Source: Bacillota bacterium
GTDB lineage: Bacteria; Bacillota; Clostridia; Peptostreptococcales; Anaerovoracaceae
DNA: 32,033 bases
Assembly: GCA_022793975.1 (NCBI GenBank)
Contig: JAAWDW010000049.1
Coordinates: 1-32,033 of the forward strand
Direction of reading: 5' to 3'
Shown: positions 303 to 30,417 of the stretch, one piece after another
Layout: every line of letters starts with the position of its first letter
Position numbering within the stretch: the first letter of the stretch is position 1
Notes under the pieces: model-generated
Seen by the model: the letters and a program-made list of their open reading frames with translations, nothing else
Database searches by the model: none
What the model was told of the DNA's origin: nothing
Program-made: the position numbers and the translations under genes

Positions 303-2045
303 ATGTGGCAAATAGGCGAATCGCCGTATAATTTTCTATATATTGCAGCGGTATTAATTCTTATTTGGCTGGCACTTTCGGTGGGAACGGTTGTTGTTAA
401 AATGCGCCGGACAGAGAAAGAAAGCAGCCGTAGTTTTAAATACGAAAAAATGTTTTTTGAAGATGTATACAATTCGGAAGCTATTGTATATATGATGATT
501 TCTAAGGAAGATAAAAAACTTCTTTATCTAAGTAAAAATGCGGAACGAATATGGGGCATTTCCGAAGATAGGATTCGTACAGATATAGAAGTGCTGGAAA
601 GCCTTGCGGAAAAAGAATACCGCAGGGATTTTATGCAGAAGTGGAAAGAATGGGATGAAAAAGAAGAGCTTATACATAATTTTGTTGTTTCGGGTAACGG
701 CAAAGAAGTATGGTATGAACTTACGGTAACATTATCTCAGGATAAAAGCGCATATCTTTTCCGATTCCGCGAGAATACATATGAACAGGCGGAAATAAAA
801 AGTCTCAGAGATGAAATACACAAAGCGGAAATGGACGTCAAATATAAGACGGACTTTTTATCGAATATGTCACATGAAATTCGTACGCCTATGAATGGAA
901 TTCTCGGAATGCTTGCCTTAAGCAAAATGAGCGCCGGAAGAATGGATGAACACTGTAAGAGCACCGAAGAATATAAGGCAATCGCAGAATATCTGGAAAA
1001 GGCGGAAAGTTTGTCGCAGTTCCTTCTTGGGCTTATAAACGATATTCTTGATATGTCGCGTATAGAGAGTGGAAAGATGGAACTTGCGCGTGAGCCGTTT
1101 GACTTGTTTGAATTTGCGGAGAAGCTCAGAGCGATGTTCCAAAAGACGATCGAAGAAAAAGGCGTTGCATTTAAAATGGAACTGCTTGATTTTGATGTAC
1201 GGCGCGTAATAGGGGACGAACTGAGACTGTCTCAGGTAATTGTTAATTTTCTTTCAAATGCGGTAAAGTTTACATCTGCCGGCGGAGAAATTTCGGTAAC
1301 ATTTCGACAAATGAACAGAATGGACGGCAAAGTTCATTTTATGATCAGGGTACGCGATACGGGGAAAGGTATTTCCCCGGAATTTTTAAAGCGTATTTTT
1401 AAGCCTTTTGAGCAGGAGACAGCCACAATTGCCAAAAGTCACGGCGGAAGCGGTCTGGGAATGGCCATTGCCGATAATATGGTAAGGCTTATGAACGGTC
1501 AGATAGTGGTAGACAGTGAAGTTGGAAAGGGAAGTGATTTCAGCGTTTACCTTGCACTTCCGGTTGATGAATCACAGCCGCAGGGAAATACAGACAATGA
1601 AATTTTCACAAAAGACAGCCCGGCAGCCAAAGAAGACATTCAGGGAGAATGCACGATAGAAGGTATGAGACTGCTTATGGCTGAAGATAATGAAATAAAT
1701 GCGGAAATATCCATAAGTATTTTGGAGGAAATGGGAGCCTCTGTGGAACGTGCCGAGAACGGGCAGGAGGCAGCGGATATGTTCACGGATCACGAGCCGG
1801 GATATTATGATACTATTCTTATGGACATTCAGATGCCTGTAATGAATGGTTGGGAAGCGACAGCGGTTATTAGGGGTATGGAAAGAGAGGACGCAAAAAC
1901 AATTCCTATTTATGCACTTTCTGCGGATGCGTTTGTTGAGGATAAAAGACGTTCTGTAGAAATCGGAATGAACGGGCATATTTCCAAACCGATTGATTTT
2001 GATGAGCTTGTTAAAACAATAGGGAGGTCAGGCAGTGAAAGATAG
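303..2045 (+). CDS. Membrane-anchored hybrid sensor histidine kinase with C-terminal receiver domain
   Basis: One N-terminal TM helix; PAS-like region; H-box SNMSHEIRTPMNGILG; HATPase motifs DTGKGIS and GGSGLGMAIA; REC domain with DTILMDIQMPVMNGWEAT and a following conserved Lys (SKPIDFDEL). Confidence 0.95.
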   Translation: MWQIGESPYNFLYIAAVLILIWLALSVGTVVVKMRRTEKESSRSFKYEKMFFEDVYNSEAIVYMMISKEDKKLLYLSKNAERIWGISEDRIRTDIEVLESLAEKEYRRDFMQKWKEWDEKEELIHNFVVSGNGKEVWYELTVTLSQDKSAYLFRFRENTYEQAEIKSLRDEIHKAEMDVKYKTDFLSNMSHEIRTPMNGILGMLALSKMSAGRMDEHCKSTEEYKAIAEYLEKAESLSQFLLGLINDILDMSRIESGKMELAREPFDLFEFAEKLRAMFQKTIEEKGVAFKMELLDFDVRRVIGDELRLSQVIVNFLSNAVKFTSAGGEISVTFRQMNRMDGKVHFMIRVRDTGKGISPEFLKRIFKPFEQETATIAKSHGGSGLGMAIADNMVRLMNGQIVVDSEVGKGSDFSVYLALPVDESQPQGNTDNEIFTKDSPAAKEDIQGECTIEGMRLLMAEDNEINAEISISILEEMGASVERAENGQEAADMFTDHEPGYYDTILMDIQMPVMNGWEATAVIRGMEREDAKTIPIYALSADAFVEDKRRSVEIGMNGHISKPIDFDELVKTIGRSGSER

Positions 2046-5000
2046 AAAGAACATATTTATCGACTGTATAAAAAAATATTCTAAAGGAATATGTGCTGCG
2101 GTCATTGCTCTTTTGATGCTTTTTGCAGTTGGAAATGAAGTGTCGGGGCAGGGGATAGGCTTTGATCCGAAAAAGATTGATACGTCGTTTTCATCGAACA
2201 ATCAAGGGACTCCCGATATGACAGGGTACGACTTATCAGAAGAAGGCAGTGACCGTGAAGAAGTGAATCACGATTCGGATCGTATGAAAGATAAAGACGA
2301 AAATCCGGGATTTGAGGAAAATGTGAGCGAACAGGGCAGTGAAGATATTGTACTGCCGAATGGAATCACGGAAGGTTTGAATCCGTCGGATACTATTGAT
2401 GCAGCGGTAAATCCCGGCGGAACGGATAACGATGCAGATAATCCGTATGGCGTGACGGATGGGAATCAAAAGCCGGAAGATAAAGAGGAAAAACCGGGGA
2501 CATCAGGTGATAAAAAACCTTCGGGAGACAATGATCAGGACTCAGACTCAAATAAAGACAAAGTATCGGTTATTGTAAACGGAGAGAAAAAGGAATTTGC
2601 AAGCGAGGACGAGGCGCTTTTGTGGTTTGCCGAAAATGCCGGCAAGAATGATAGTGAGCAGTTTTTTGAAGGTTTTGTTAAAGATGAGAACGGAAATATT
2701 GTTCCCAGCTATACAGACAAAGAAAATTTTGACGGCAGTTCAAGCGGAGATATTTCATACGGATATACGGGTGACAGCGGTATTTTTGTCGTACCGAGCG
2801 GAATGACTATGCTTGACCTTGACTTTGCCGATACGAATGCAAGTCAAAAGATAAAGACTATTGTAATTTCGAAGACGATAACGGATATCAATATAGGCTC
2901 ATTGGGAAATTCTTTCAGCTCTCTCGAAAAATTTGTAGTATCGACCGACAATCCGAATTTTACAAGTAAGGACGGAGTACTGTACCGTAAAACAGAAGAC
3001 GGTTTGGTGCTCTATATGCTGCCGGCGGCAAAGAAAGAGATTAAAGAATGGCCGGAAAATGTTATTTCGGTAAGAGAAAATTCATGTTACGCTTCATCCG
3101 CTGAAAAAATAGAATTTCCGGATACAGTTAAAGGAATAGGAGCTTTTGCGTTCCTGGAGTCGGTTATAGGAGAAATTGTAATTCCGGAAAATACCGCAAG
3201 TATAGGCAACGCCGCATTCGGGTTTAAAAATTCGGAAGAACCGCATAAAATTGCAGTAAAAGCGGCGATACCGCCGAAAGTGGAAAGCGGGACATTCAGG
3301 TATATGACGTCAAAAGACAATCCGGCAACGGAAATAATTGTTCCGAGTTCACAGGATGATTCTGTATATATGGAATATTTGCTGAACTGGGGAAATATCA
3401 TTTCCGGACTTTATGGCAGGGAAAATGTACAAAAGATACTCAAAACCGCGGACGGTGCGCAGGATCGCTTTGAATATTACGAAGAAAACGGAACAGTATT
3501 TTGGCGCAAAATCGGAGAAGACGTTCCATTTATAATGGAAGACAGTCTCGGAGTGTATAAATTTAATGAAGCAGGAGGCAAGGTGCTTTACAGATGCACG
3601 ACAACAAGCGCGGTAGTGAATTTGGCAGGGACCGATATCGCGGCAGTGGCAGAAGGCGCGTTTGATGGCTGTGCAGGGCTTGTGGGCATACGTCTGCCTG
3701 AAAATCTGACGGTACTGCCGGATAATGTTTTTGCAAACAATAAAAATCTGAGGGCTGTTATATCGTACGCACTGTTTCCGCAGACTGAAATTTTGGGCGC
3801 CCCGGAAACATGCGCGGTATGTGTAAGGCCTGAAGCATTCGAAAGCTATAAAGAGGCTTGGGGAGGACAGGTGCGCAGAATAATCGGAACATCTGAAACG
3901 TATTCGCTGCTTTCATCAGGAGTTTTGCTTGATATGGCGAACGCGCGGATACTTGATGTGCCGAAAGACCTAAGGAGTTTTAATGTTCCGAGTTATGTTA
4001 CTATGATTTATGATGAAGCGTTTGCGGGCAATACGGCACTGATGTCAATAACAATACCGGCAAAAGTAACAAGCATAGGAGAAAGAGCTTTTGCAGACTG
4101 TACGGCGCTGAGGACTGTTACGTATCAGACAGCGGTGGCAGTACCGGATTCATGTTTTGAGAACTGCAATGTACTTACTGCTTTTAATGCATCCGGAAGC
4201 GGACATAATCTTAAAAGCATAGGGAACAGAGCGTTTTACGGCTGCGAGAAATTAAATACAGTGCTGTATTACAGCTATACATCATCAAACGGGCAGAATA
4301 TATATTATTACTATTATCTTGAGAATATAGGTGAAGAAGCATTTTACGGCTGCAGTTCGATGACGTACGCTTACCTTCACAGCTCTGTAAAAAATGTAGG
4401 GGAAGGAGCTTTTGCTGAAAGCGGTATTGCTGCTATGGATTGGTACACAGCAGCGTCGGTACCGGACTTATGTTTTGAAAGCTGCGTAGATCTTAAAACG
4501 TTTAACGGACAGGGAGACGGACATCTTCTTAGAAGTATAGGAAACAGAGCGTTTTACGGCTGCAGCTCTCTCGATACGATGTTGTATTACAGTTATGCAG
4601 TGGATGGAAAGAATTATATATATTATTACTTGCTTGAAAATGTAGGGGAAGAGGCATTTTACGGCTGCAGTTCGATGACATACGTATATTTGCACAGCTC
4701 TGTTGCAAATGTCGGCGGCAGGGCGTTTGCGGAAAGCGGGCTGGTACAGCTGTATTGGTATACGCAGACTCCTGTGGCGGACGAATGTTTTAAAGACTGC
4801 GAGGCTTTAAGCACAATAGGCTGGGGAGGAACAGCAGCTACAAATCCATCAGGTTTCGGAAGGGAAGCATTTTACGGATGTACAGGATTTTCTGAGTTCA
4901 AAGTACCGAAAGAAGCGTTCTTTGTGGGGGATGAAGCGTTCGGCGGCAGAAACGCGGTGCCGCTGAAACTGGTATTTACATCACAGGAGCCTCCGAAACT

Positions 5001-5355
5001 CGGAGTACTAGGACAGAAAGACGGACTTACAATTTATGTGCCCGATTCACAGGAAGCGGGTGATATGGTGTATGCCGCTTATCTTAATTCTTGGATAGAT
5101 GTGCTTGGAGATAAGTGGGCAGAGATATTGAAGACAGAGGATGGTGCCGAAAACAGGGTGACACCGCATCTTCCTGAGCCGCCCGAAGCGGTGGAAGCGG
5201 AAGCTGTAATGCCTGAAAATACAGAGCCAGATTATACAGCACCTGAAGAAGATGTAAATGATGCGGAAGATGAGGAAGGCTATGAAAATATAAAATCTGA
5301 AGAAGCAGAAGACAGTAATACGAATACTGCACCCGTAGATGATGAAGAGGAGTAA
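2035..5355 (+). CDS. Secreted/membrane BspA-like leucine-rich repeat (LRR_5) surface protein
   Basis: N-terminal hydrophobic segment ICAAVIALLMLFAVG; Asp/Glu/Pro-rich linker; many LRR_5 motifs (IGERAFADCTAL, IGNRAFYGC, VGEEAFYGCSSM); GTG start overlapping the kinase 3' end by 11 nt, with GGGAGG RBS. Confidence 0.9.
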   Translation: MKDRKNIFIDCIKKYSKGICAAVIALLMLFAVGNEVSGQGIGFDPKKIDTSFSSNNQGTPDMTGYDLSEEGSDREEVNHDSDRMKDKDENPGFEENVSEQGSEDIVLPNGITEGLNPSDTIDAAVNPGGTDNDADNPYGVTDGNQKPEDKEEKPGTSGDKKPSGDNDQDSDSNKDKVSVIVNGEKKEFASEDEALLWFAENAGKNDSEQFFEGFVKDENGNIVPSYTDKENFDGSSSGDISYGYTGDSGIFVVPSGMTMLDLDFADTNASQKIKTIVISKTITDINIGSLGNSFSSLEKFVVSTDNPNFTSKDGVLYRKTEDGLVLYMLPAAKKEIKEWPENVISVRENSCYASSAEKIEFPDTVKGIGAFAFLESVIGEIVIPENTASIGNAAFGFKNSEEPHKIAVKAAIPPKVESGTFRYMTSKDNPATEIIVPSSQDDSVYMEYLLNWGNIISGLYGRENVQKILKTADGAQDRFEYYEENGTVFWRKIGEDVPFIMEDSLGVYKFNEAGGKVLYRCTTTSAVVNLAGTDIAAVAEGAFDGCAGLVGIRLPENLTVLPDNVFANNKNLRAVISYALFPQTEILGAPETCAVCVRPEAFESYKEAWGGQVRRIIGTSETYSLLSSGVLLDMANARILDVPKDLRSFNVPSYVTMIYDEAFAGNTALMSITIPAKVTSIGERAFADCTALRTVTYQTAVAVPDSCFENCNVLTAFNASGSGHNLKSIGNRAFYGCEKLNTVLYYSYTSSNGQNIYYYYYLENIGEEAFYGCSSMTYAYLHSSVKNVGEGAFAESGIAAMDWYTAASVPDLCFESCVDLKTFNGQGDGHLLRSIGNRAFYGCSSLDTMLYYSYAVDGKNYIYYYLLENVGEEAFYGCSSMTYVYLHSSVANVGGRAFAESGLVQLYWYTQTPVADECFKDCEALSTIGWGGTAATNPSGFGREAFYGCTGFSEFKVPKEAFFVGDEAFGGRNAVPLKLVFTSQEPPKLGVLGQKDGLTIYVPDSQEAGDMVYAAYLNSWIDVLGDKWAEILKTEDGAENRVTPHLPEPPEAVEAEAVMPENTEPDYTAPEEDVNDAEDEEGYENIKSEEAEDSNTNTAPVDDEEE
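4120..4880 (+). repeat. Tandem ~315-318 bp in-frame repeat (two full copies plus a partial third) in the LRR gene
   Basis: GCGTTTTACG recurs at 4231 and 4549 (318 bp apart); ATTTTACGGCTGCAGTTCGATGAC recurs at 4341 and 4656 (315 bp apart); a third partial unit (YWYTQTPVADECFKDC...GREAFYGC) follows. Confidence 0.8.
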
Positions 5356-5363
5356 GAACAGCA

Positions 5364-6311
5364 ATGATAATTAAACAATCCGAACAGATTATGAGAGAAG
5401 TCGGCAAAGTGCTTATGGGTAAAGGGGAAATAATAGAGAAAGTCCTTATGGCTATTTATGCCGGCGGGCATATACTCCTTGAAGATACGCCAGGTGTGGG
5501 TAAGACGACACTGGCGCTCGGATTTTCCAAAGCACTGGGCATGGATTATAAGCGTATACAGTTTACGCCGGATACAATGCCTTCCGATATCATAGGTTAC
5601 ACGATGCCGGGGCAGGAAAACGGCGAAACGGTATATAAAGCAGGAGCCGTACATACAAATTTGTTTCTGGGAGATGAAATAAACCGTACTTCTCCGAAGA
5701 CCCAGTCAGCTCTTCTGGAAGCTATGGAAGAAGGAAATGTAACGGTAGACGGTGTCACTTACTTGCTTCCGAAACCGTTTATATGTATAGCGACTCAGAA
5801 TCCTGTAGGAATGTCGGGTACGCAGCCGCTGCCTGAAGCACAGCTTGACAGATTTATGATAAGGACTTCCATAGGGTATCCGAGCACGGAAGATCAGATA
5901 CGAATACTTGATGAAAAGAGACATCAAAATACAATGGATGAAGTAAAAGCTGTGGTGACACGGGATATGGTAATAGAAGTGCAGAACTATTTATCGACCA
6001 TAAGAATGACGGAAGCCGTGCTTCGTTATATGACGATTTTATGCGAACGTACAAGGCAGGACAGCGGAGTAGAACTTGGAGTGAGTCCGCGCGGAATTAT
6101 TGCTCTGTCGCGTATGGCGAGGGCGAAAGCGCTTCTTGATGAACGTGATTATGTAGTACCTGAGGATGTACGCGCGGTGTTTAAAGACGTATGCGCTCAC
6201 CGTGTAATACTGCGCCCGCAGGCGAGAATGGAAGGCCGTACTGTCGAGTCGCTGCTTGATGAGATTATGCAGTCTACGGAAGTGCCGGAAATGTATGAAA
6301 AAAAGAGATAG
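5364..6311 (+). CDS. MoxR-family AAA+ ATPase
   Basis: Walker A LLEDTPGVGKTTLA; Walker B-like LFLGDEINRTSPKTQSALLEAMEE; ATQNPVGMSGTQPLPEAQLDRF. Confidence 0.97.
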   Translation: MIIKQSEQIMREVGKVLMGKGEIIEKVLMAIYAGGHILLEDTPGVGKTTLALGFSKALGMDYKRIQFTPDTMPSDIIGYTMPGQENGETVYKAGAVHTNLFLGDEINRTSPKTQSALLEAMEEGNVTVDGVTYLLPKPFICIATQNPVGMSGTQPLPEAQLDRFMIRTSIGYPSTEDQIRILDEKRHQNTMDEVKAVVTRDMVIEVQNYLSTIRMTEAVLRYMTILCERTRQDSGVELGVSPRGIIALSRMARAKALLDERDYVVPEDVRAVFKDVCAHRVILRPQARMEGRTVESLLDEIMQSTEVPEMYEKKR

Positions 6312-6314
6312 ATT

Positions 6315-7484
6315 ATGAAAAAATATAGGATTGTTTATCTGGTTTCCACGATATTAATTCTGCTTTGCGGATTGTTTGGCGGAGTAAAATCGGCGCCTGT
6401 AATATTGGCGGTAATGGCGGTGCTTCCTATACTTTCCGGCGCGGGCTTTTATATTTCGCTAAGAGGGATTTCGCTTTCGCTGGAAGGCGGAGGTTTCTGT
6501 CGTTCAGGTCAGGATATGAATATAAAACTCATACTTAAATGTCCCCGCCCATGTGCGGTCGGAAACATTAAAGCAGATATAGTATGCAGGAATAATGTTT
6601 TTAACACAGAAAAAGAAATGCCGTATATGCTGGAACTCGGAAGAGGGCGCAGGCATGAATATAGCGTTCCTTTGGATACAAACATATGCGGACTCAGGAC
6701 AATTAAAATCCGTGAAATGATATGCTATGATTTTCTCGGACTTTTTTCGCATATAAAACCATTGCGGGAGGAAGTTACATGTATTGTATATCCGTATGAA
6801 GCGAAGATGTATGTGGAATTCCGTAAAAATACAGAGCGCGAACAGCCAGGTGATATTTATGACGGTAAGAAAAGCGGCACCGATGTGAGTGAGGTATTCG
6901 GACTGCGTGAATATGCGGAGGGTGATTCGCTGCAGAGTATACACTGGAAGCTGTCGGGAAAAATGAATAAACTCATCGTACGTGAATTCGGACGTCCGGT
7001 TAATTATCATACACTTGTACTTTTATCTCCTTCGTTTTTATACAGCAGTATAGAAGTCGAAGAAAAGACTGTAAACGGTGTTTTTGATCTCGGAGTATCG
7101 CTGAGTCACGCGCTGTTAAATCAAAATATAGCACATTTTGTCGGCTGCTTTGACGGAGGTGAAATACATTGCATTCCTGTGGACTCACCCGCAAGTTATG
7201 AAAATATGCTTATAAATCTTATGAATCGTCCTTTGCAGAAAAACGGCGACGATACGATGATTGCATTTATAGACAGGCAGATGCACAGGCAGTATACAAA
7301 GGTGCTTTATGTGGCAGGCGGTATCAATGAAAAAATTGCGCAGAATTTATCTGAAATGATAGATTTAACAGTTATTCAGGCAGCAGAGGGCGGTTCGGTA
7401 CATTTTGCAGGAGGACGCGCTTATGAATCGGTGGGAATCCCTATAGAAAATATACGAAAGGCAGAATATGTTATTCCGCTTTAA
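6315..7484 (+). CDS. DUF58 domain-containing protein
   Basis: Two N-terminal TM helices; DUF58 signature GTDVSEVFGLREYAEGDSLQSIHWKLSGKMNKLIVREF. Confidence 0.95.
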   Translation: MKKYRIVYLVSTILILLCGLFGGVKSAPVILAVMAVLPILSGAGFYISLRGISLSLEGGGFCRSGQDMNIKLILKCPRPCAVGNIKADIVCRNNVFNTEKEMPYMLELGRGRRHEYSVPLDTNICGLRTIKIREMICYDFLGLFSHIKPLREEVTCIVYPYEAKMYVEFRKNTEREQPGDIYDGKKSGTDVSEVFGLREYAEGDSLQSIHWKLSGKMNKLIVREFGRPVNYHTLVLLSPSFLYSSIEVEEKTVNGVFDLGVSLSHALLNQNIAHFVGCFDGGEIHCIPVDSPASYENMLINLMNRPLQKNGDDTMIAFIDRQMHRQYTKVLYVAGGINEKIAQNLSEMIDLTVIQAAEGGSVHFAGGRAYESVGIPIENIRKAEYVIPL

Positions 7485-7508
7485 AAGGAAGCGGCCGATG
7501 ATAAAAAT

Positions 7509-9815
7509 ATGAGAAGAAAACAGGGAATTGAAGTTCTGAAAGAACAGAAAAAAGGTTATTTGAATAAGATATCGGCGGCGGTACTTAAAACTTTAAGCAC
7601 AATACTGATTGCGGCCGGACTTACGGGAGCTTTCTTTGCAATAGGTGGCGGACCGATTTTTCTTATACCTATTTTTATTGTTGTACTGGCTGTAATGGTA
7701 ATTACAGGTATTGATTTTGTTATAAAAGATAAATCTTACGGTTTTATGGTATGCTTTGCTGCGTCTGCCGTGCTTTTATTTTTGTCCGCATCAAGCGTTC
7801 TGCGCGGTGTGTATATGTGGGGCAGTAATTTCCGTGCGGTTTGGAATAGGGTATTCGGTACGTTTTACGATCAATTTACCGTTTTGGGATATACCGAAAG
7901 TGATATGCTTACGGCAGGAATAGTATTTGCGCTTTTAATTTCGGCAGTATCATGGGAACTTATAAGGAGAAAAAAATTTATTTTAATAACAGTGCTGGTT
8001 TTGATACCGCTGTGCCTTTCGATGGTGCTTTCAACAGAACTTCCCGTATGGGTAAGCGCAAGTCTACTGACAGGATTTATGGCAGTATGGTGCAGTATCA
8101 GCAGTGCGGCGGGAATAAGATGGGAAACGATAGTTCCGGTGCTTTTTGTATGGGTACTTCTGTTTACGGTGTCGTATGCAAGTTCCGGCGTTAAATGGTA
8201 CAGATTTTCTGCGGATTTTCGTGAAAATGTTAAATATACGGTCGAGAAATTGCGTTTCGGAGAAGATAATCTTCCGGCAGGGGATCTGACAAAAGCAGAT
8301 ATGATGCTTGTGTCGCCGGAAACCGCAAACAGGCTGGAGATAAATACGGACCACGAGGGAACTCTTTATCTGCGCGGGTTTGTAGGCTCAGAATATGACA
8401 AAAGCAGGTGGAAGACTTTTTCGGCCGATAATTATGGCGGTGAATTTACCGGAATATTGCCGTGGCTCGGAGAAGAGAATTTTTATCCGGGAATGCAGTA
8501 TTCCGAGTATATAGATGCATCGGCGGAAGATGCTGAAAACGGAAAAGAAGAAAAAGTGTCGGTAAAAAATATCGGAGCAAGCCGCAGGTATATATATCTT
8601 CCGGAAACGGCATCTTCGTACAGCGGCACAGACGGAAAATGGAAACAGGACTGGGCACTTGAGTCCTCACAGGCATTTGGCAGCAGGGAATATTTATTTA
8701 CATATTATGATGTGCAGAAAAATGCGGAGACTCAGTTGCCGGCAGCGTGGATGTACCAGGAAGATGTTTCTGGTAATCATATGAAATTTAAAGAGAATGA
8801 GCTTTTATACCGCTCTTTTGTATACGAGAATTATCTCGGCATAGAAGATGATAAAAAAGAACTAATAAATAATGTGTTTTTCAGCGGAGAAGCAAGAAAT
8901 ACTGCAGTGGAAAGTATTTATACGGCAACGTCCAGAATACGTACTGTGCTGCGAATTCTTGCCGCTTATGATGAATCTCCGGCGAGAGTTCCGGCAAACC
9001 GAGATTTTTTAACCTGGTTTTTGACGGAAGGAAAAGAAGGCAATTCTGCTTACTATGCTACAGCGGCAGTGTTTGCATACAGAGCAGCAGGCATTCCTGC
9101 GCGTTACTCAGAAGGATATTTGCTGACAGAAAGTCGGACCAAGGAAAACAACGGCAGCATTGTTCTTACGGATAAAGATGCACACGCTTGGGTTGAAGTT
9201 TATATAGACGGTATGGGCTGGCGTGCTGTTGAGGTGACTCCGGGATTTTACGAGGAAATTTATCAGGCTAATATTATAGTTGCCGTGCCGAATGAAGCAC
9301 TTACGGGAACAAATGGAGAAACTGTAGATATTCCAGCTTCGGAGGAGTTTACGATGCCGGATACGGAAGATGAGAAAGCATCGGATGCAGAGAAGCCGGG
9401 AATTCTGATACCGGGACTTTTGCTTATACTTTGTGCTGCTTTGACTGTAGCAATTGTGCATCGTCTTTATGTTATGTATTTGAGTGCAGCATACAAAAGA
9501 ATGTCAGACGCCGAAAAACTGCGTTTTCTTTATAAAAAAATTATGGATATGACAGCAAAGCTGTATAAGAATTTTAACCCGCAGCAGCCGCTGGATATTA
9601 GGGCTTGCGGGGAAGTTTCTTTTGATATTGAATTTTACGAGCGTACAGTAGTGCGTATGGAGAGGATGATATACGGAGATATTCTTCCGCAGCCGAGAGA
9701 AATACCGGCGGCGGAAGAACTGGCAAAGCAGCTTAGATGTGAGCTTTACAGAAAAAACAGATTTAAACAAATGTTTTCGGATAATTTTGGCAGAGCCGTG
9801 GCTGTGAAAGGGTAG
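7509..9815 (+). CDS. TgpA-like polytopic membrane protein with transglutaminase-fold domain (apparent Cys->Ser at the nucleophile position)
   Basis: N-terminal multi-TM region; core GNSAYYATAAVFAYRAAGIPARYSEGY ... DAHAWVEVYIDGMGWRAVEVTPGF; C-terminal TM plus cytosolic tail; adjacent to moxR and DUF58. Confidence 0.9.
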   Translation: MRRKQGIEVLKEQKKGYLNKISAAVLKTLSTILIAAGLTGAFFAIGGGPIFLIPIFIVVLAVMVITGIDFVIKDKSYGFMVCFAASAVLLFLSASSVLRGVYMWGSNFRAVWNRVFGTFYDQFTVLGYTESDMLTAGIVFALLISAVSWELIRRKKFILITVLVLIPLCLSMVLSTELPVWVSASLLTGFMAVWCSISSAAGIRWETIVPVLFVWVLLFTVSYASSGVKWYRFSADFRENVKYTVEKLRFGEDNLPAGDLTKADMMLVSPETANRLEINTDHEGTLYLRGFVGSEYDKSRWKTFSADNYGGEFTGILPWLGEENFYPGMQYSEYIDASAEDAENGKEEKVSVKNIGASRRYIYLPETASSYSGTDGKWKQDWALESSQAFGSREYLFTYYDVQKNAETQLPAAWMYQEDVSGNHMKFKENELLYRSFVYENYLGIEDDKKELINNVFFSGEARNTAVESIYTATSRIRTVLRILAAYDESPARVPANRDFLTWFLTEGKEGNSAYYATAAVFAYRAAGIPARYSEGYLLTESRTKENNGSIVLTDKDAHAWVEVYIDGMGWRAVEVTPGFYEEIYQANIIVAVPNEALTGTNGETVDIPASEEFTMPDTEDEKASDAEKPGILIPGLLLILCAALTVAIVHRLYVMYLSAAYKRMSDAEKLRFLYKKIMDMTAKLYKNFNPQQPLDIRACGEVSFDIEFYERTVVRMERMIYGDILPQPREIPAAEELAKQLRCELYRKNRFKQMFSDNFGRAVAVKG

Positions 9816-9823
9816 AGTTTATT

Positions 9824-11296
9824 ATGGTTAATGCCGCAAATAACAGTGCAAATGAAGTGAAACTTGATAAGAAGCTGTCACCTGTAAATGTGTGGGCAAT
9901 AGCATTCGGATGCATAATCGGCAGCGGAGCTTTTTTGCTACCCGGCACATCTTTTCTGCCTAAAGCGGGGCCTCTCGGTGCGGCAGTAGCGATGCTTGCG
10001 GGTGCGTCGGCTATGGTTATCATTGCTGTAAATTATAATTTTATGATAAATAAATATCCTGTTGCTGGCGGTGAGCTTACGTACGCAAAAGAAGCTTTCG
10101 GTAATGTGCATTCATTTATATGCGCGTGGTTTTTAAGCTTGTCGTATTTAATGATCGTACCGTTTAATGCAACGGCACTGTCAATGGTGGCCAGAAGCTT
10201 CTTTGGTTCCGTGTTTCAGGCGGGATTTCACTACAGCGCTGCCGGATATGATATATATTTTGGGGAGATACTTCTTGGAATTTTTGCACTTGCAATTTTT
10301 GCGCTTCTTAATATAAGAGGAGTAAAGTTTACCGGTATGTTTCAAACAGTGCTCTCGTGTTCACTTGTGAGTGCTGTTGTAATAATTTTTACAGCGGCAA
10401 TCTTAAAAGGTGTGATTACAGCAGACAATTTGTCGCCGCTGTTTGCAGGGGCTGCGGGTCATAGAGCCTTGCAGCCGGATAATGCCGTGCAGGAGAGCAG
10501 TGCATTTTCGGGAGTGCTTAAAGTGCTTGCTGTAGCTCCGTTTTGTTTTCTTGGTTTTGATACGACATCACAGGCGGCAGAAGAACTTAAATTTTCAGTA
10601 AAAAAATCAAAAGCAATTATGGCGCTTTCAATATTTTTCGGAGCGTTTATATATATAGCGCTTAATCTGACGGCGGCTTCGTGCAGACCTGACAGGTATG
10701 CAGACTGGACAGAATACATTTTTGATGTAAATTCCGGAATGCTTTCCGGAATAGAAAATATTCCTGTGTTTAATGCGGCAGAGATGCTTCTCGGAAATCC
10801 CGGATTATTTTTTATAGGTATAGCGGTATTCGCCGCTATGTGTTCCGGCATTACGGGATTTTATCTTGCGACAAGCCGTATTATGTACAGAATGGCGCGT
10901 GCAGAAATAATTCCGTCATGGTTTGGAATGCTGCATCCGAAATATAAAACTCCGGTCAAAACGCTGTTTTTTATTCTTGCAATATCAGTTATAGCACCGT
11001 TTTTCGGAAGAACTGCACTTGGATGGATTGTTGATATGACATCTCTCGGTGCGGCAATCGGATTTGGGTATACTTCGGCGTCCGCTTTTAAGTTTGCTAA
11101 AAAGGAAGGTAATAAGAGAATAGCAATGTCAGGGCTGCTGGGGACGGTGATGTCGTGTATATTTGCGGCGTTGCTTCTTGTCCCAGTACCTATGCTTGAC
11201 TGCGCATTGGGACGTGAATCGCTGATATGTCTTGCAGTGTGGTCGGCTATGGGTATAGTGTTTTATGTATATACAAAGAGGCATAGAGGTGTATAA
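9824..11296 (+). CDS. APC-superfamily amino acid permease
   Basis: About 12 hydrophobic segments; N-terminal GCIIGSGAFLLPG motif typical of APC permeases; PFCFLGFDTTSQAAEE. Confidence 0.92.
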   Translation: MVNAANNSANEVKLDKKLSPVNVWAIAFGCIIGSGAFLLPGTSFLPKAGPLGAAVAMLAGASAMVIIAVNYNFMINKYPVAGGELTYAKEAFGNVHSFICAWFLSLSYLMIVPFNATALSMVARSFFGSVFQAGFHYSAAGYDIYFGEILLGIFALAIFALLNIRGVKFTGMFQTVLSCSLVSAVVIIFTAAILKGVITADNLSPLFAGAAGHRALQPDNAVQESSAFSGVLKVLAVAPFCFLGFDTTSQAAEELKFSVKKSKAIMALSIFFGAFIYIALNLTAASCRPDRYADWTEYIFDVNSGMLSGIENIPVFNAAEMLLGNPGLFFIGIAVFAAMCSGITGFYLATSRIMYRMARAEIIPSWFGMLHPKYKTPVKTLFFILAISVIAPFFGRTALGWIVDMTSLGAAIGFGYTSASAFKFAKKEGNKRIAMSGLLGTVMSCIFAALLLVPVPMLDCALGRESLICLAVWSAMGIVFYVYTKRHRGV

Positions 11297-17913: not shown

Positions 17914-17987
17914 ATTGCTTTAATAGGATGAATTGCTAATGCAATACTGTATGCTATTTATTATCAATGAAAGAGAGGAAAGGTAGA

Positions 17988-20900
17988 TTGAAGAAGAAAT
18001 TATTGACACTTCTTTTAGCATTCGTAATGGTAGTCGGACCTGTTATACCGGTTTCGGCAACAGAAGTTCCGGCCGTTTACGAAGATATTGCTGATATTAT
18101 TGCTGGATATGACGATGATGATATTGTCACGTCGGATGTGCTTGACGAGCTTTATGCATTGATAAGCGATACTGCTGAAGAAGAAAAGGCAGAGGATTTA
18201 TCTGATGATGAAGCTGTGGATGCTGCGGACGCGCAGGAAGATGAGACAGCGAATATCGCTCTTGATCTTGCGGCGGATTTCAGTGAAACCGATACGGAAA
18301 GCAGCGATGCGGTTACTCCGAACGGGGGGGCTGAAAGTGCGACTGACAGTAAATTTGACACTGATTCTGCAATTGACAGTGCTGCTGCGGGTACGCAGCT
18401 TGAAAATGAAAGTGTTTTAGTAAGTGCTGCGGACAGCGATGCGGTAAATGCGGTACTCAGCAGTGGAAATACTGATATCGGCAGTGAAACTGCAGTAAAT
18501 GACACAAACTTGGAAAATTCGGGGACTGTATCCGGCGAAAGCGGCGGAGTTTCCGATTATGGTGATGTTGTAAATGATCCGGCAGATACGGATGAAAATA
18601 ATTCGACGGATACCGAAAACCCTGCGGAAGAAGAAACTCCTGCTCTGGATCCTGCGGCAACTCAGCAGGAAACTGTAATTTTTATGCTTCGTTTTGCAGG
18701 TATGAAAGATAGCCAGCTTTCGTCAGTAAGTGAAGAAGAAAATGCGGAGCAATTTGCATATGACTGCAATGAGCTTGCAAACAGTATAAATATGTTCAAA
18801 GGTTTTACATATGAACCGGAAAGCGAGTGTACTTTTGCCCAGCTTAATACAATGTTTAAAAATGCGGAGCCTCTTTACAATGCTCTTCATGCGGACAAAC
18901 TGAAGCCTCTCTTTATAAACGGAATGGCGCAGCCTATATTCCCGTATACGACAGGGTCTGTTACAGAGGGATACAGTAATGAAGACAGTGATATCATACG
19001 TTTTTGTGTATATGTTGAGACAAATTACGATACTGATGATGACGGAAAGCTTGATCTTGTAAAGACGCTTGTACAGCTTCCGAGAGCAGCTATGGAAGGA
19101 GATTACGAAGCAGCTTCCATTTTTGAAGCACGCCCGTATATAACGGGATGTACAAGCGGAAGACATCCTAATGTAGAAGGCGGCTCCTATGATATATCGA
19201 AAATGTACAGTCAACCTGACGCACGTACGGCAGAGGGAACAATAACTACCGCAGAGCATGCAAAAGATGCAGATTCGGCTGAATGGTATTATTATAATCC
19301 ATACGAAAAAACATACGCTTATGAAGATCTGGACTGGTATGATTATTATTTGACAAGAGGATTTGCAGTAGTAGAAAGCGGCGGACTCGGAACTAAAGGT
19401 TCTGACGGATTTGAAACCTGCGGTACAGACCTCGAAATAGATGCGTTCAAGTGCATCATTGAATGGCTGCACGGAGACAGAGTGGCCTATACCGATAAAA
19501 CAAATAATATTGCGATTGATGCAGACTGGTCAAACGGAAAAGTCGGAATGACAGGTCGTTCATATGCGGGCACTACTCAGTTCGGACTTGCCACAACAGG
19601 CGTTGAGGGACTTGAGACGATCGTTCCTGTTGCCGGTATTGCAAGCTGGTATGAATACAGCAATTCACAGGGTAGCGTTATGACAAGCCTTGCCTACTCG
19701 GATTATCTTGCATATTTCTGCAACGGACGTCTGCAGGATGAGGATTATGCAGATACTATTCAGGACAAATACAATAATTATTTGACACAGCTGGTTATTG
19801 ATCAGACCGCTCTTAACGGCGATTATGCCAATGCGGAAAAAGGACTTGATCATTGGCAGATACGAGACTATACGGTAGAACCGCTTATGGATGACTGGAC
19901 AGGCATAGATATTCCTGCACTTATCGTTCATGGTCTTAATGATACAAATGTAAAGACTAAGCAGTTCGATCTCATGTATAAATCGTTTGATGATGCGGGT
20001 CAGAATGTAAAACTTCTGCTTCATCAGGGAACTCATTTGACTCCTACTTATCCGAGTCAGAAATATGAACTTAAAATTGACGGAGAGTATTATGATACAA
20101 TACTTAACAAATGGTTCAGTCATTATTTATATGGTGTAAACAACGGCATTGAGAGAATGGCTAATGTAACGGTACAGAGCAATGTTGACGGAAAATGGGA
20201 TACGTATAACAGCTGGAAGACGGCTTCAAAGCAGATACTCAAATTTGCGGATGTTGCAGAAGGAGAGACTTCGGCGGTAGCAAACAGAAATCCTGCGAGA
20301 TATACGTTTGATATTCCGGAAGAAGTAATAATTCAGGGTGCTGTCGCAGTACACATCCGCGCAGCGGCATCGGCGGTATCGGAAGACACTCCGCTTTCCG
20401 GTAAAGATCAGGTAAGAATGACAGTTGAACTTACAGACAAAAATGACAGTGAATTTGATGCATTTGTTCCGAGCAGAAGTTATCTGCCTATTAGTACTTT
20501 GCAGGCAAAAGGTGCATGGATGGGCGGAGGTCTTACAAATTACGATTTAGTAGAGTATGTGCAGACAAAGACCGCTTCAAAGAGCATCGGAATGGGATAT
20601 ATTGATATATTCAATCCGACAGCCGGATATGATTCGGCTTCCGCATCTGTTCGTACAGAACTTGTTGATGGCCAGTATTACGATTATACAGTATACATTC
20701 AACCTACTGTATATACTATTCAGGGCGGACATAATGCACAGCTTTCAATAAGTATAGCCAATAACAGTGGTGTTGCACTTACTATTGATAATAATGCAAC
20801 ATATATTGAGATTCCAACACACAGCGATAAGGCGCCTTCCGGCAATAAGAATCACGGTTCGTCGGGAAGTACGTTAAGTACGCAGACGGAACCGGGTATA

Positions 20901-21476
20901 GGAAACACTACGGGAAGTGCGGTACAGACAGGCAGCTTTAATGATGTTAATACAGGAAAATGGTATTACAGTGCTGTTGAATATGTAGCTTCAAAAGGTA
21001 TTATGACAGGTGTAAGCGGAAATAACTTCGGACCTGATACAAATACAACGAGAGGCATGATAGTTACAATTCTCCACCGTTTGGAAAATGAACCGGCAAG
21101 CGGTACAGCGCCGTTTACAGATGTAAAGGGAGGATATTATGCAAATGCAATTGCATGGGCTGATGCAAACGGCATCGTAACAGGATATGGCAACGGACTT
21201 TTTGGACCGAATGATGCTATAACGCGTGAGCAGATGGCAGCAATTCTTTACAGATATGCAAAGTACAAGGGATATGATGTATCGGCCGCAGCTGATCTTG
21301 CAGCTTTCAGTGATGCAGAAAATATAAGCAGTTATGCTGTTGATGCAATGAAATGGGCTAATGCGGCAGGGCTCATTACAGGCGTAACGAACAGTAAGCT
21401 CGTGCCTGCAGACAATGCGATTCGTGCACAAGCAGCTTCAATACTTATGCGTTTCTGTGAGAATATCGAGCAGTAA
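17988..21476 (+). CDS. Secreted, SLH-anchored S15-family Xaa-Pro dipeptidyl-peptidase-like hydrolase
   Basis: Signal peptide MKKKLLTLLLAFVMVVGPVIPVSA; acidic low-complexity linker; S15 nucleophile motif GMTGRSYAGTTQFGLA; IPALIVHGLNDTNVKTKQ (Asp) and LLLHQGTHL (His); three C-terminal SLH domains (FNDVNTGKWYYSAVEYVASKGIMTG..., FTDVKGGYYANAIAWADANGIVTG..., FSDAENISSYAVDAMKWANAAGLITG...). TTG 17988 with AGAGAGGAAAGG upstream fits better than ATG 17967, which lacks an RBS. Confidence 0.92.
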   Translation: MKKKLLTLLLAFVMVVGPVIPVSATEVPAVYEDIADIIAGYDDDDIVTSDVLDELYALISDTAEEEKAEDLSDDEAVDAADAQEDETANIALDLAADFSETDTESSDAVTPNGGAESATDSKFDTDSAIDSAAAGTQLENESVLVSAADSDAVNAVLSSGNTDIGSETAVNDTNLENSGTVSGESGGVSDYGDVVNDPADTDENNSTDTENPAEEETPALDPAATQQETVIFMLRFAGMKDSQLSSVSEEENAEQFAYDCNELANSINMFKGFTYEPESECTFAQLNTMFKNAEPLYNALHADKLKPLFINGMAQPIFPYTTGSVTEGYSNEDSDIIRFCVYVETNYDTDDDGKLDLVKTLVQLPRAAMEGDYEAASIFEARPYITGCTSGRHPNVEGGSYDISKMYSQPDARTAEGTITTAEHAKDADSAEWYYYNPYEKTYAYEDLDWYDYYLTRGFAVVESGGLGTKGSDGFETCGTDLEIDAFKCIIEWLHGDRVAYTDKTNNIAIDADWSNGKVGMTGRSYAGTTQFGLATTGVEGLETIVPVAGIASWYEYSNSQGSVMTSLAYSDYLAYFCNGRLQDEDYADTIQDKYNNYLTQLVIDQTALNGDYANAEKGLDHWQIRDYTVEPLMDDWTGIDIPALIVHGLNDTNVKTKQFDLMYKSFDDAGQNVKLLLHQGTHLTPTYPSQKYELKIDGEYYDTILNKWFSHYLYGVNNGIERMANVTVQSNVDGKWDTYNSWKTASKQILKFADVAEGETSAVANRNPARYTFDIPEEVIIQGAVAVHIRAAASAVSEDTPLSGKDQVRMTVELTDKNDSEFDAFVPSRSYLPISTLQAKGAWMGGGLTNYDLVEYVQTKTASKSIGMGYIDIFNPTAGYDSASASVRTELVDGQYYDYTVYIQPTVYTIQGGHNAQLSISIANNSGVALTIDNNATYIEIPTHSDKAPSGNKNHGSSGSTLSTQTEPGIGNTTGSAVQTGSFNDVNTGKWYYSAVEYVASKGIMTGVSGNNFGPDTNTTRGMIVTILHRLENEPASGTAPFTDVKGGYYANAIAWADANGIVTGYGNGLFGPNDAITREQMAAILYRYAKYKGYDVSAAADLAAFSDAENISSYAVDAMKWANAAGLITGVTNSKLVPADNAIRAQAASILMRFCENIEQ

Positions 21477-27730: not shown

Positions 27731-29158
27731 ATGCTTTTTTCATCACTTATATTTATGGCGGTATTTCTGCCATGCGTACTTATAATTTATTACGGGCCGC
27801 TGCGCCGGCACCGTAGTCTGCAGAATGTATTTCTGCTGCTTGCAAGTCTTGGATTTTATGCTTGGGGCGAACCGTGGTTTGTGCTCATAATGCTGCTTTC
27901 AATACTGGGCAACTGGATTTTCGGTATGCTGGTTGATAAAGTACGCGCAAGCAAAGTAAAATCACGGACAGTTATTTCCGTGATGCTAATATTCAACATT
28001 TCGATTATTTTTGTATTTAAATATCTTATGTTTACGCTTAAGACCATAAATTCCCTTGCCGGAACAGATATAAATGTGCCGCAGATAGCTCTGCCGATAG
28101 GTATATCATTTTTTACATTCCAGGCTATTTCTTATGTAATAGACGTATATCGGGAAAAAGGCGAGATGCAGAAAAATTTGCTCAATGTAGGGCTATATAT
28201 AGCATTTTTTCCTCAGCTTATAGCGGGACCGATAGTGCGCTATGAGACAATATCGGATCAGATAATGGAACGTCGCGAGTCGTGGGATGATTTTGCACAT
28301 GGTGTCTGTCGCTTTATTGTCGGACTTTCCAAGAAAGTTCTGCTGGCAAATAATTTTGCGGTGGTTGCCGATCAGAGCTTTGCGTTTTCGGCAGCAGACA
28401 ATTGTTCTGTTGCTTTTGCTTGGTTGGGCGCGATTTCTTATACTCTGCAGATATATTTTGATTTTTCGGGTTATTCCGATATGGCTATCGGACTCGGCGG
28501 AATGTTCGGATTTCATTTTCCCGAAAACTTTAATTATCCGTATATATCTGTATCAGTGTCGGAATTCTGGCGCCGCTGGCACATTTCTCTCGGTACTTGG
28601 TTCCGCGATTATGTGTACTTCCCTCTCGGCGGAAGCCGTGTTGCAAGTAAACTGCGCCTTGTTTTCAATCTCTTTGTAGTATGGTTTATGACGGGCGTAT
28701 GGCATGGTGCGAATTTTACATTTATAGCGTGGGGCGTTATGTACTTCGTGTTTATCTCACTGGAAAAGCTTACAGACTTTGAGAAACGAAACATTCCTAT
28801 AGCTATAAAGTATGTATATACAATGTTTCTTGTTGTTATTGGTTGGGTGTTCTTTCGAGCAGACAGTATTGCGGACGGAATCAGTTTTGTGGGAAAGATG
28901 TTCGGCGCGGGAGCATTGGGTCTTACAGACGCCAATTTCACAGTGTTTATGAAAGAAAACATATGGTATTTTGTATTCGGCATAGTATTTTCAACGCCGA
29001 TTGCAAGAAAGCTCAGCGATCTTGTGACAGAAAAAACAAGTGAAACAAATCCGTTAATAGCAGCACTTTACAGTGTGTGTCTTGCGGCGGGAATGCTTTT
29101 TTCACTTTCATACCTTGTCAAGGGTGCATACAACCCGTTTATATACTTTAACTTTTAG
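27731..29158 (+). CDS. MBOAT-family O-acyltransferase (AlgI/DltB-like)
   Basis: Polytopic; FPQLIAGPIVRYETI; YFDFSGYSDMAIGLGGMFGFHFPENFNYPY; EFWRRWHISLGTWFRDYVYFPLGGS; MTGVWHGANFTFIAWG catalytic His region. Confidence 0.97.
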   Translation: MLFSSLIFMAVFLPCVLIIYYGPLRRHRSLQNVFLLLASLGFYAWGEPWFVLIMLLSILGNWIFGMLVDKVRASKVKSRTVISVMLIFNISIIFVFKYLMFTLKTINSLAGTDINVPQIALPIGISFFTFQAISYVIDVYREKGEMQKNLLNVGLYIAFFPQLIAGPIVRYETISDQIMERRESWDDFAHGVCRFIVGLSKKVLLANNFAVVADQSFAFSAADNCSVAFAWLGAISYTLQIYFDFSGYSDMAIGLGGMFGFHFPENFNYPYISVSVSEFWRRWHISLGTWFRDYVYFPLGGSRVASKLRLVFNLFVVWFMTGVWHGANFTFIAWGVMYFVFISLEKLTDFEKRNIPIAIKYVYTMFLVVIGWVFFRADSIADGISFVGKMFGAGALGLTDANFTVFMKENIWYFVFGIVFSTPIARKLSDLVTEKTSETNPLIAALYSVCLAAGMLFSLSYLVKGAYNPFIYFNF

Positions 29159-29175
29159 AGAGGAGGCGCGCAGAA

Positions 29176-30417
29176 ATGAATAAAATTAAGAAAATCTTTG
29201 AAAATCATACAAGAGAAAAGATAACAGCGTTGCTTTTCCTCTTAATAATATTCGGTATGTTTATAGGAACAGCGCTTAATGCGAGGACCGTTGGAGCAAG
29301 TTTTATAAATACTTACAGAGCTTCGGTACCTACCGGTGCCCCGTATCTAGAAAGGATAAAGGGAGCGATAAGTGCTGCCGAAAGTGCAGTGAACGAAGGA
29401 GCATTTCAGAGGCAGAAATATATTGAGCTTTACGGGCTTTCGCAGCGTGCAATGGGCAAAAACGTGATAACAGACTATAATTATGGCTCTCTTTATAAGA
29501 CAACATACGGACAGATAACTTTTGCCGGTGTTGAGCGTTATGTAGACGATTCGTGCGGGGCGGTTTATGACCTCGTAAATAATCTCATATCAAAGGACAT
29601 AGATTTTCTTTATATACAGTTGCCTTTCAAAGTGCCGCCCGCAAGATACAACGGAGATAAACAGCTTCCGGCAAATGTTAAGGATCATGCAAATGATAAC
29701 GCAGATAAATTTGTGGCAGCGCTTAATGCCGCATCGGTAAAAACGTACGATCTGCGCGATGATTTCTGGCAGTCGGATATGACTCAGAACGAGCTTTTCT
29801 TCGATACCGACCACCATTGGTCAATCCAAGGTGCTTTTTATGCGACCGGACTGATCGCAGACTACCTTAATGAAAATTACGATATGCAGATACCGGAAAG
29901 TCTTTATACTAAAGAAAATTTCAGTTTCAAGACTTATGAAAATTCATATATAGGCTCTATGGGAAGGCGCGTGGGCAGAATATACGGCGGTATTGATGAT
30001 TTTACGCTCATTACTCCGAATTTTGCTACTGATTATACAGTGCGCCATATTGAGGGTGAAGAGCCGAAAGAATTCAGCGGAACGTTTGCGGAAGCTGTGC
30101 TTGAAAATGAATATATTACAGATCCTGATCCGACTACGAACCGCTATGCCGTATATCACGGAGATTACAGAGAACTGCATTTTATAAATCATCTGGCACA
30201 AGGCGATAAAAAGATACTTATAATAAAGGATTCATTTTCGCTTCCCGTTTATAGTTTTTTGTCGCTTGGTATAAAGGAAGTACGTGCGATAGATATGCGT
30301 CTGTTTGACAGAAATGTTGCGGAGTACGCGGCAGAGTACGATCCCGATCTGGTGATACTTATGTACAATGCAGACAGTTTTGCTTATCCGATGTTTGATT
30401 TTCATCTCGGCGAATAG
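29176..30417 (+). CDS. DHHW/AlgJ-like SGNH-family protein, O-acetylation partner of the MBOAT
   Basis: N-terminal TM; FFDTDHHWSIQGAFYATG DHHW motif; KILIIKDSFSLPVYSFLS; directly downstream of MBOAT (17 nt gap). Confidence 0.93.
   Translation: MNKIKKIFENHTREKITALLFLLIIFGMFIGTALNARTVGASFINTYRASVPTGAPYLERIKGAISAAESAVNEGAFQRQKYIELYGLSQRAMGKNVITDYNYGSLYKTTYGQITFAGVERYVDDSCGAVYDLVNNLISKDIDFLYIQLPFKVPPARYNGDKQLPANVKDHANDNADKFVAALNAASVKTYDLRDDFWQSDMTQNELFFDTDHHWSIQGAFYATGLIADYLNENYDMQIPESLYTKENFSFKTYENSYIGSMGRRVGRIYGGIDDFTLITPNFATDYTVRHIEGEEPKEFSGTFAEAVLENEYITDPDPTTNRYAVYHGDYRELHFINHLAQGDKKILIIKDSFSLPVYSFLSLGIKEVRAIDMRLFDRNVAEYAAEYDPDLVILMYNADSFAYPMFDFHLGE

Follow-up and report, generated by a model that had tools for sequence, protein, structure and literature searches.

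A TgpA-like membrane protein whose transglutaminase-fold domain lacks its nucleophilic cysteine is a probable pseudo-transglutaminase of a MoxR–DUF58 operon

The window, by which we mean the whole 32,033-nucleotide stretch of DNA analysed here, encodes a TgpA-like membrane protein that has Ser513 at the nucleophile position of a transglutaminase (TG) fold. We consider it probable (at roughly 0.7) that this protein is a pseudo-transglutaminase: the TG fold of a MoxR–DUF58 membrane system in which the chemistry of the Cys has been lost and the fold has been reused for binding. Comparison of the sequences makes it highly probable, in our estimation, that transglutaminase activity as such is gone. 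The gene closes a run of five, and the features on which the argument turns are these:

303 to 2045, forward strand: hybrid histidine kinase with receiver domain (PF02518, PF00512, PF00072), first gene of the module, overlapping the LRR gene
2035 to 5355, forward strand: BspA-type LRR_5 protein of 1106 residues (PF13306, E 1.2e-62), in the same place in the related genome G031
5364 to 6311, forward strand: MoxR AAA+ ATPase (PF07726, E 3.4e-53; AAA_lid_2, E 3e-25)
6315 to 7484, forward strand: DUF58 protein directly upstream of the TG gene (PF01882, E 9.3e-5, a little below the curated cut-off), its place in the gene order conserved in relatives
7509 to 9815, forward strand: TgpA-like membrane protein of 768 residues with a Cys-less TG-fold domain, open reading frame uninterrupted
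8916 to 9233, forward strand: Transglut_core domain (PF01841, E 1.4e-18), residues 470–575
8970 to 9047, forward strand: lead-in to the nucleophile, residues 488–513, conserved in Cys relatives and relaxed in the non-Cys clade
9045 to 9047, forward strand: Ser513 codon TCT at the nucleophile position, aligned with the Cys of TgpA
9183 to 9185, forward strand: His559, the conserved triad His (present in 55/57 non-Cys and 57/57 Cys relatives)
9231 to 9233, forward strand: Glu575, third triad position, Asp in TgpA and commonly Glu in both groups of relatives

A preliminary description of this DNA had read a Cys-to-Ser replacement in a transglutaminase fold from the segment 9027–9245, and that reading stands: the segment translates as written there, and codon 513, where Cys is expected, begins at 9045 (7509 + 512 × 3). 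The PF01841 match scores 67.5 bits (cut-off 23), and a phmmer search of PDB chains aligns G-N-S-A-Y-Y-A of the window protein with G-F-C-A-H-Y-A of TgpA (6g49), the DAHAWVE segment that holds His559 with the DAHAWVE of TgpA, and Glu575 with the Asp of the VDPT motif of TgpA; a profile built from 70 relatives places the window protein in the identical register (E 1.6e-28). The protein is without the nucleophilic Cys of active PF01841 enzymes and has both the triad His, described earlier as kept in DAHAWVEVY, and the Asp/Glu. The equivalent of residue 575 is also Glu in 47 of the 57 Cys-type relatives, and its occurrence instead of Asp is ordinary. The six Cys residues of the window protein are at positions 82, 169, 195, 642, 700 and 744; we looked for Cys in the extracytoplasmic residues 235–625 and found none, so a shifted alignment offers no other Cys as nucleophile, an outcome that the preliminary description had named as fatal to its reading.

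Hydropathy, with hydrophobic segments at about 21–228 and 627–658, predicts for the window protein the layout of TgpA: a polytopic N-terminal membrane region, an extracytoplasmic TG domain, one further transmembrane helix and a cytoplasmic tail. Pfam searches gave it no match to TgpA_N (PF11992), a family that matches the extracytoplasmic parts of 15 of the 70 relatives, and we found no gene-family name for it other than PF01841. We also modelled residues 235–645 with AlphaFold2 from an alignment of the 70 relatives (mean pLDDT 87.8, pTM 0.86); the best fold match of this model in the PDB is again TgpA 6g49 (E 3.3e-14, probability 1.00). According to DSSP, the domain helix of the model starts at Ser513 (local residue 279). 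Each of the residues Ser, Asp, Glu and Ala is tolerated or even favoured where a helix makes its first turn; with residue 513 opening the domain helix, we infer that a preference of the helix N-terminus, and not catalysis, may explain why these four residues occur at this position.

That they do occur there is evident from the relatives. Among 226 unique domains, the nucleophile column holds Cys in 146, Asp in 41, Ser in 32, Ala in 5 and Glu in 2, counts from a sample that leans towards the window's own relatives and that are not population frequencies. These relatives were recovered by several searches, among them an alignment-based scan of genome contigs, where a single-sequence scan with the full protein had returned none, and their assemblies are mostly metagenome bins; that of Adlercreutzia sp. 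ZJ176 bears no such label. The nearest relative in the set, from G031, is 41% identical over the whole protein (E 5.8e-178) and reads GNSAYFATAAV, and Ser stands in the same motif in L050 (GNSPYYATAAV); a search of three genomes of the same genus (G001–G003) for the window protein gave no match. Ala is found in close Eggerthellaceae relatives (L051, from Adlercreutzia sp. ZJ176, and L248, L251 and L252) and Asp or Glu in the wider non-Cys clade. The preliminary description had asked whether Ser is conserved across orthologues in the same operon; within the clade it is one of several residues that stand in for Cys. A set of 29 homologues at greater distance, drawn from the wider phylum to which the Adlercreutzia genome belongs, has Cys throughout.

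By these comparisons the Cys-less state is no single-strain oddity. The non-Cys protein is also the sole Transglut_core match in G022 (94% complete), G476 (96%) and G675, so that there, at least, it is not merely the silent partner of an active paralogue; the window's own genome is a draft, 59% complete, and an active paralogue could lie in the missing part. Most relatives within the window's own family (L130, L131, L134, L138 and others) have Asp at the nucleophile position with the His and Glu kept, possibly a metal-binding set. In the open-access papers that we searched, TgpA-like proteins without the Cys are not described from MoxR operons.

We placed 115 of these proteins on a tree, obtained by a quick search with the nucleophile columns left out, in which 57 of the 58 non-Cys proteins fall into one group (SH-aLRT 98) that includes a single Cys protein (L086); L064, the one non-Cys protein outside it, lies with Cys proteins. 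Keeping the 57 together and L086 apart gives a tree slightly likelier than the free one (p-AU 0.618), and a grouping of all 58 is not rejected either (p-AU 0.277), so the sequences fit anything from one to three losses of Cys, the number not being fixed. Given the dominance of Cys in the superfamily, we take Cys to be the ancestral state. Within the non-Cys group the position shifts back and forth between Ser, Ala, Asp and Glu: the tree calls for no fewer than 13 changes of state among the five residues, as against three between Cys and non-Cys, which means that the position went on changing after the Cys was lost. The window protein and that of G031 pair with a support of 100 and adjoin Eggerthellaceae proteins with a mixture of Ser and Ala. 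The outlying L064 (6001–6345), a Lachnospiraceae protein that reads GDSTAFA at the nucleophile, is a possible independent loss.

Simple decay, which the preliminary description had argued against from the intact look of the rest of the protein, is excluded, because the TG region has dN/dS values of 0.03–0.23 (Nei–Gojobori, non-Cys pairs with measurable dS, the value for an Ala–Ala pair being 0.23) and the core of the domain is conserved: G511, R532, G536, W561, E563 and G570 are unchanged or nearly so in the non-Cys proteins, and Glu or Asp is retained at 575 in 56 of 57. In either group, conservation is highest in the TG domain, whose mean column entropy is 1.79 bits in 57 Cys and 1.94 bits in 57 non-Cys proteins, with about 2.5–3.0 outside the domain. 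What differs between the groups is concentrated at residues 488–513 and at T577, where the non-Cys proteins are relaxed: P495 is present in 52/57 Cys relatives versus 12/57 non-Cys, Tyr at 512 in 48/57 versus 21/57 and T577 in 57/57 versus 35/57, and position 489, Leu in 46/57 Cys relatives, becomes mostly Glu or Asp. Three residues, E535, D567 and P573, have gained conservation in the non-Cys proteins. A shift of this kind is what one would expect in a pseudoenzyme, in which constraints of catalysis and substrate would be lost, the scaffold kept and new constraints gained.

The genomic setting of the gene is retained as well. Among loci with enough upstream sequence, the order MoxR–DUF58–TG is found at 62 of 65 non-Cys and 58 of 64 Cys loci. 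The window extends it into a five-gene module at 303–9815 (hybrid histidine kinase, LRR_5 protein, MoxR, DUF58 and Cys-less TG protein), and G031 has the identical five genes in identical order. Kinase genes, LRR genes or both lie upstream of MoxR in several Eggerthellaceae (L051, L291, L292, L304), and both are missing from most of the Asp-type relatives examined. Apparent fusions in G747 (a histidine kinase–MoxR protein of 912 residues and a TG protein of 1695 residues) were rejected, since they read through runs of N. An amino acid permease gene (9824–11296) begins 8 bases 3' of the TG gene in the window and is possibly a member of the operon; we sought its counterpart after the TG gene of G031 and did not find one. 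Further along the window, 17967–21476 encodes a large protein that combines an S15 peptidase domain with three SLH domains and is probably a peptidase bound to the S-layer, and at 27731–30417 an MBOAT acyltransferase gene is followed by one for an AlgX-like SGNH hydrolase, an arrangement that resembles a polysaccharide O-acetylation pair. Between the two readings that the preliminary description had offered, a non-enzymatic scaffold working with MoxR and DUF58 and an enzyme with a Ser nucleophile, the large Cys-less clade, the purifying selection upon it and its retained operon speak for the scaffold.

If Ser were the nucleophile, the TG fold would carry a Ser-His-Glu triad and the protein would be a serine hydrolase or an acyltransferase. 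His and Glu are indeed conserved, the window shares its Ser with G031, L050 and many others, and some papain-like families in which a conserved Ser replaces the Cys are noted in a 2023 survey (PMC10318531). However, a nucleophile would not tolerate exchange for Ala, as in the closest Eggerthellaceae relatives, or for Asp and Glu, as in the wider clade, with the domain otherwise unchanged; moreover, the Ser codons come from both families, TCN and AGY (TCT in the window, AGC in G031), which implies passage through another residue or a double change. We consider this reading unlikely. The Ala members of the clade also bear on the notion that the site has been converted into another, for example one in which Asp, Glu or Ser together with His and Glu binds a metal, or in which an acidic residue serves a new chemistry: Ala could not supply a ligand, and in two clade members, L164 and L284, the triad His is gone as well. 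The replacements are nonetheless mostly Asp or Ser, and 40 unique proteins have the combination Asp-His-Glu; on balance we regard such a conversion as quite improbable.

It could be supposed instead that the domain is a passive remnant, a spacer that serves the folding of the membrane protein and binds nothing, and the relaxed lead-in to the active site is in keeping with this. Strong purifying selection on the TG region is not, nor are the newly conserved E535, D567 and P573 in what is still the most conserved region of the protein, and we think a remnant hardly likely. A sequencing error or a single-strain mutation, which the preliminary description had also named as a way for its reading to fail, or else a pseudogene, might be suspected from the draft state of the source genome, but the relatives refute this: independent genomes (G031, L050) carry the same Ser, and the relatives are under purifying selection. 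The frame of the window gene, moreover, is intact over 768 codons.

Several known systems can be set beside the pseudo-transglutaminase that we favour. TgpA of Pseudomonas aeruginosa, a DUF3488-transglutaminase protein, is the top match in both sequence and fold. Its gene belongs to a short cluster of co-transcribed genes, its Cys-His-Asp triad is intact, and its transglutaminase activity has been measured (PMC3507681); the triad positions of the window protein read Ser-His-Glu, and this protein differs from TgpA also in having no PF11992 match. The bifidobacterial PFNA operon, pkb2-fn3-aaa-atp-duf58-tgm (PMC8430577), has a five-gene layout in common with the window module, namely a sensor kinase, a large surface repeat protein, MoxR, DUF58 and a TG membrane protein. 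The likeness is one of layout only, as PFNA has the Ser/Thr kinase Pkb2 and an FN3 protein where the window has a hybrid histidine kinase and an LRR_5 protein, and the authors presume its Tgm to be a cysteine protease (PMC8430577).

TG domains that are inactive or lack the Cys are known from other settings as well. RloB of Pseudomonas is an inactive transglutaminase fused to seven transmembrane helices, with a function established genetically (PMC12239564). Like the window protein, whose inactivity we deduce, it is a membrane protein with its TG domain outside the membrane; its operon, however, has retropepsin and ATP-grasp genes where the window has MoxR and DUF58, and the window protein neither has a Pfam match to the RloB-type family nor neighbours of the ATP-grasp or retropepsin kind. 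In the TG-like domain of fungal Cyk3 the Cys is absent and the His and Asp are kept, and the domain binds and activates the chitin synthase Chs2 (PMC4758748). Both the yeast protein and that of the window have lost Cys and kept His, and Cyk3 acts by binding a synthase of wall polysaccharide; by analogy we regard it as the nearest tested precedent for a non-catalytic TG-like domain, with the reservation that it is eukaryotic, cytoplasmic and SH3-linked and has neither operon nor ancestry in common with the window protein beyond the superfamily. Inactive TG domains of polymorphic toxins have lost triad residues, and their authors propose that they bind peptides at the cell surface (PMC3482391); their architecture, a signal peptide or transmembrane helix followed by RHS repeats, is unlike that of the window protein.

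Loss of the nucleophilic Cys, here Ser513, would abolish transglutaminase or cysteine-protease chemistry, and the old cleft might then hold a peptide, a wall stem or the LRR surface protein of the same operon. We envisage that MoxR and DUF58, on the cytoplasmic side, load, release or remodel the complex of the TG domain, and that the sensor kinase sets the timing of their action. To this specific mechanism, in which MoxR and DUF58 operate from the cytoplasm a binding module that lies outside the membrane, we give about even odds. The partner, be it a peptide or the LRR protein, is guessed from the order of the genes, and in most of the Asp-type relatives tested the kinase and LRR genes are absent. 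The retention of His559 and Glu575 in nearly all non-Cys members exceeds what a purely structural scaffold would need and would allow some chemistry, residual or altered, to persist. There is an outside chance that the clade has turned the active site into a new functional site (Asp, Ser or Glu with the conserved His and Glu), which would mean a new extracytoplasmic chemistry or a ligand-gated switch in MoxR–DUF58 systems of gut Clostridia and Eggerthellaceae.

MoxR–DUF58–TG operons are widespread, and TgpA has been reported as essential in Pseudomonas. That a large clade has kept the TG fold and the operon and dropped the Cys suggests that part of the function of this system is independent of transglutaminase chemistry, and the annotation 'transglutaminase' would be wrong for many gut-bacterial proteins.
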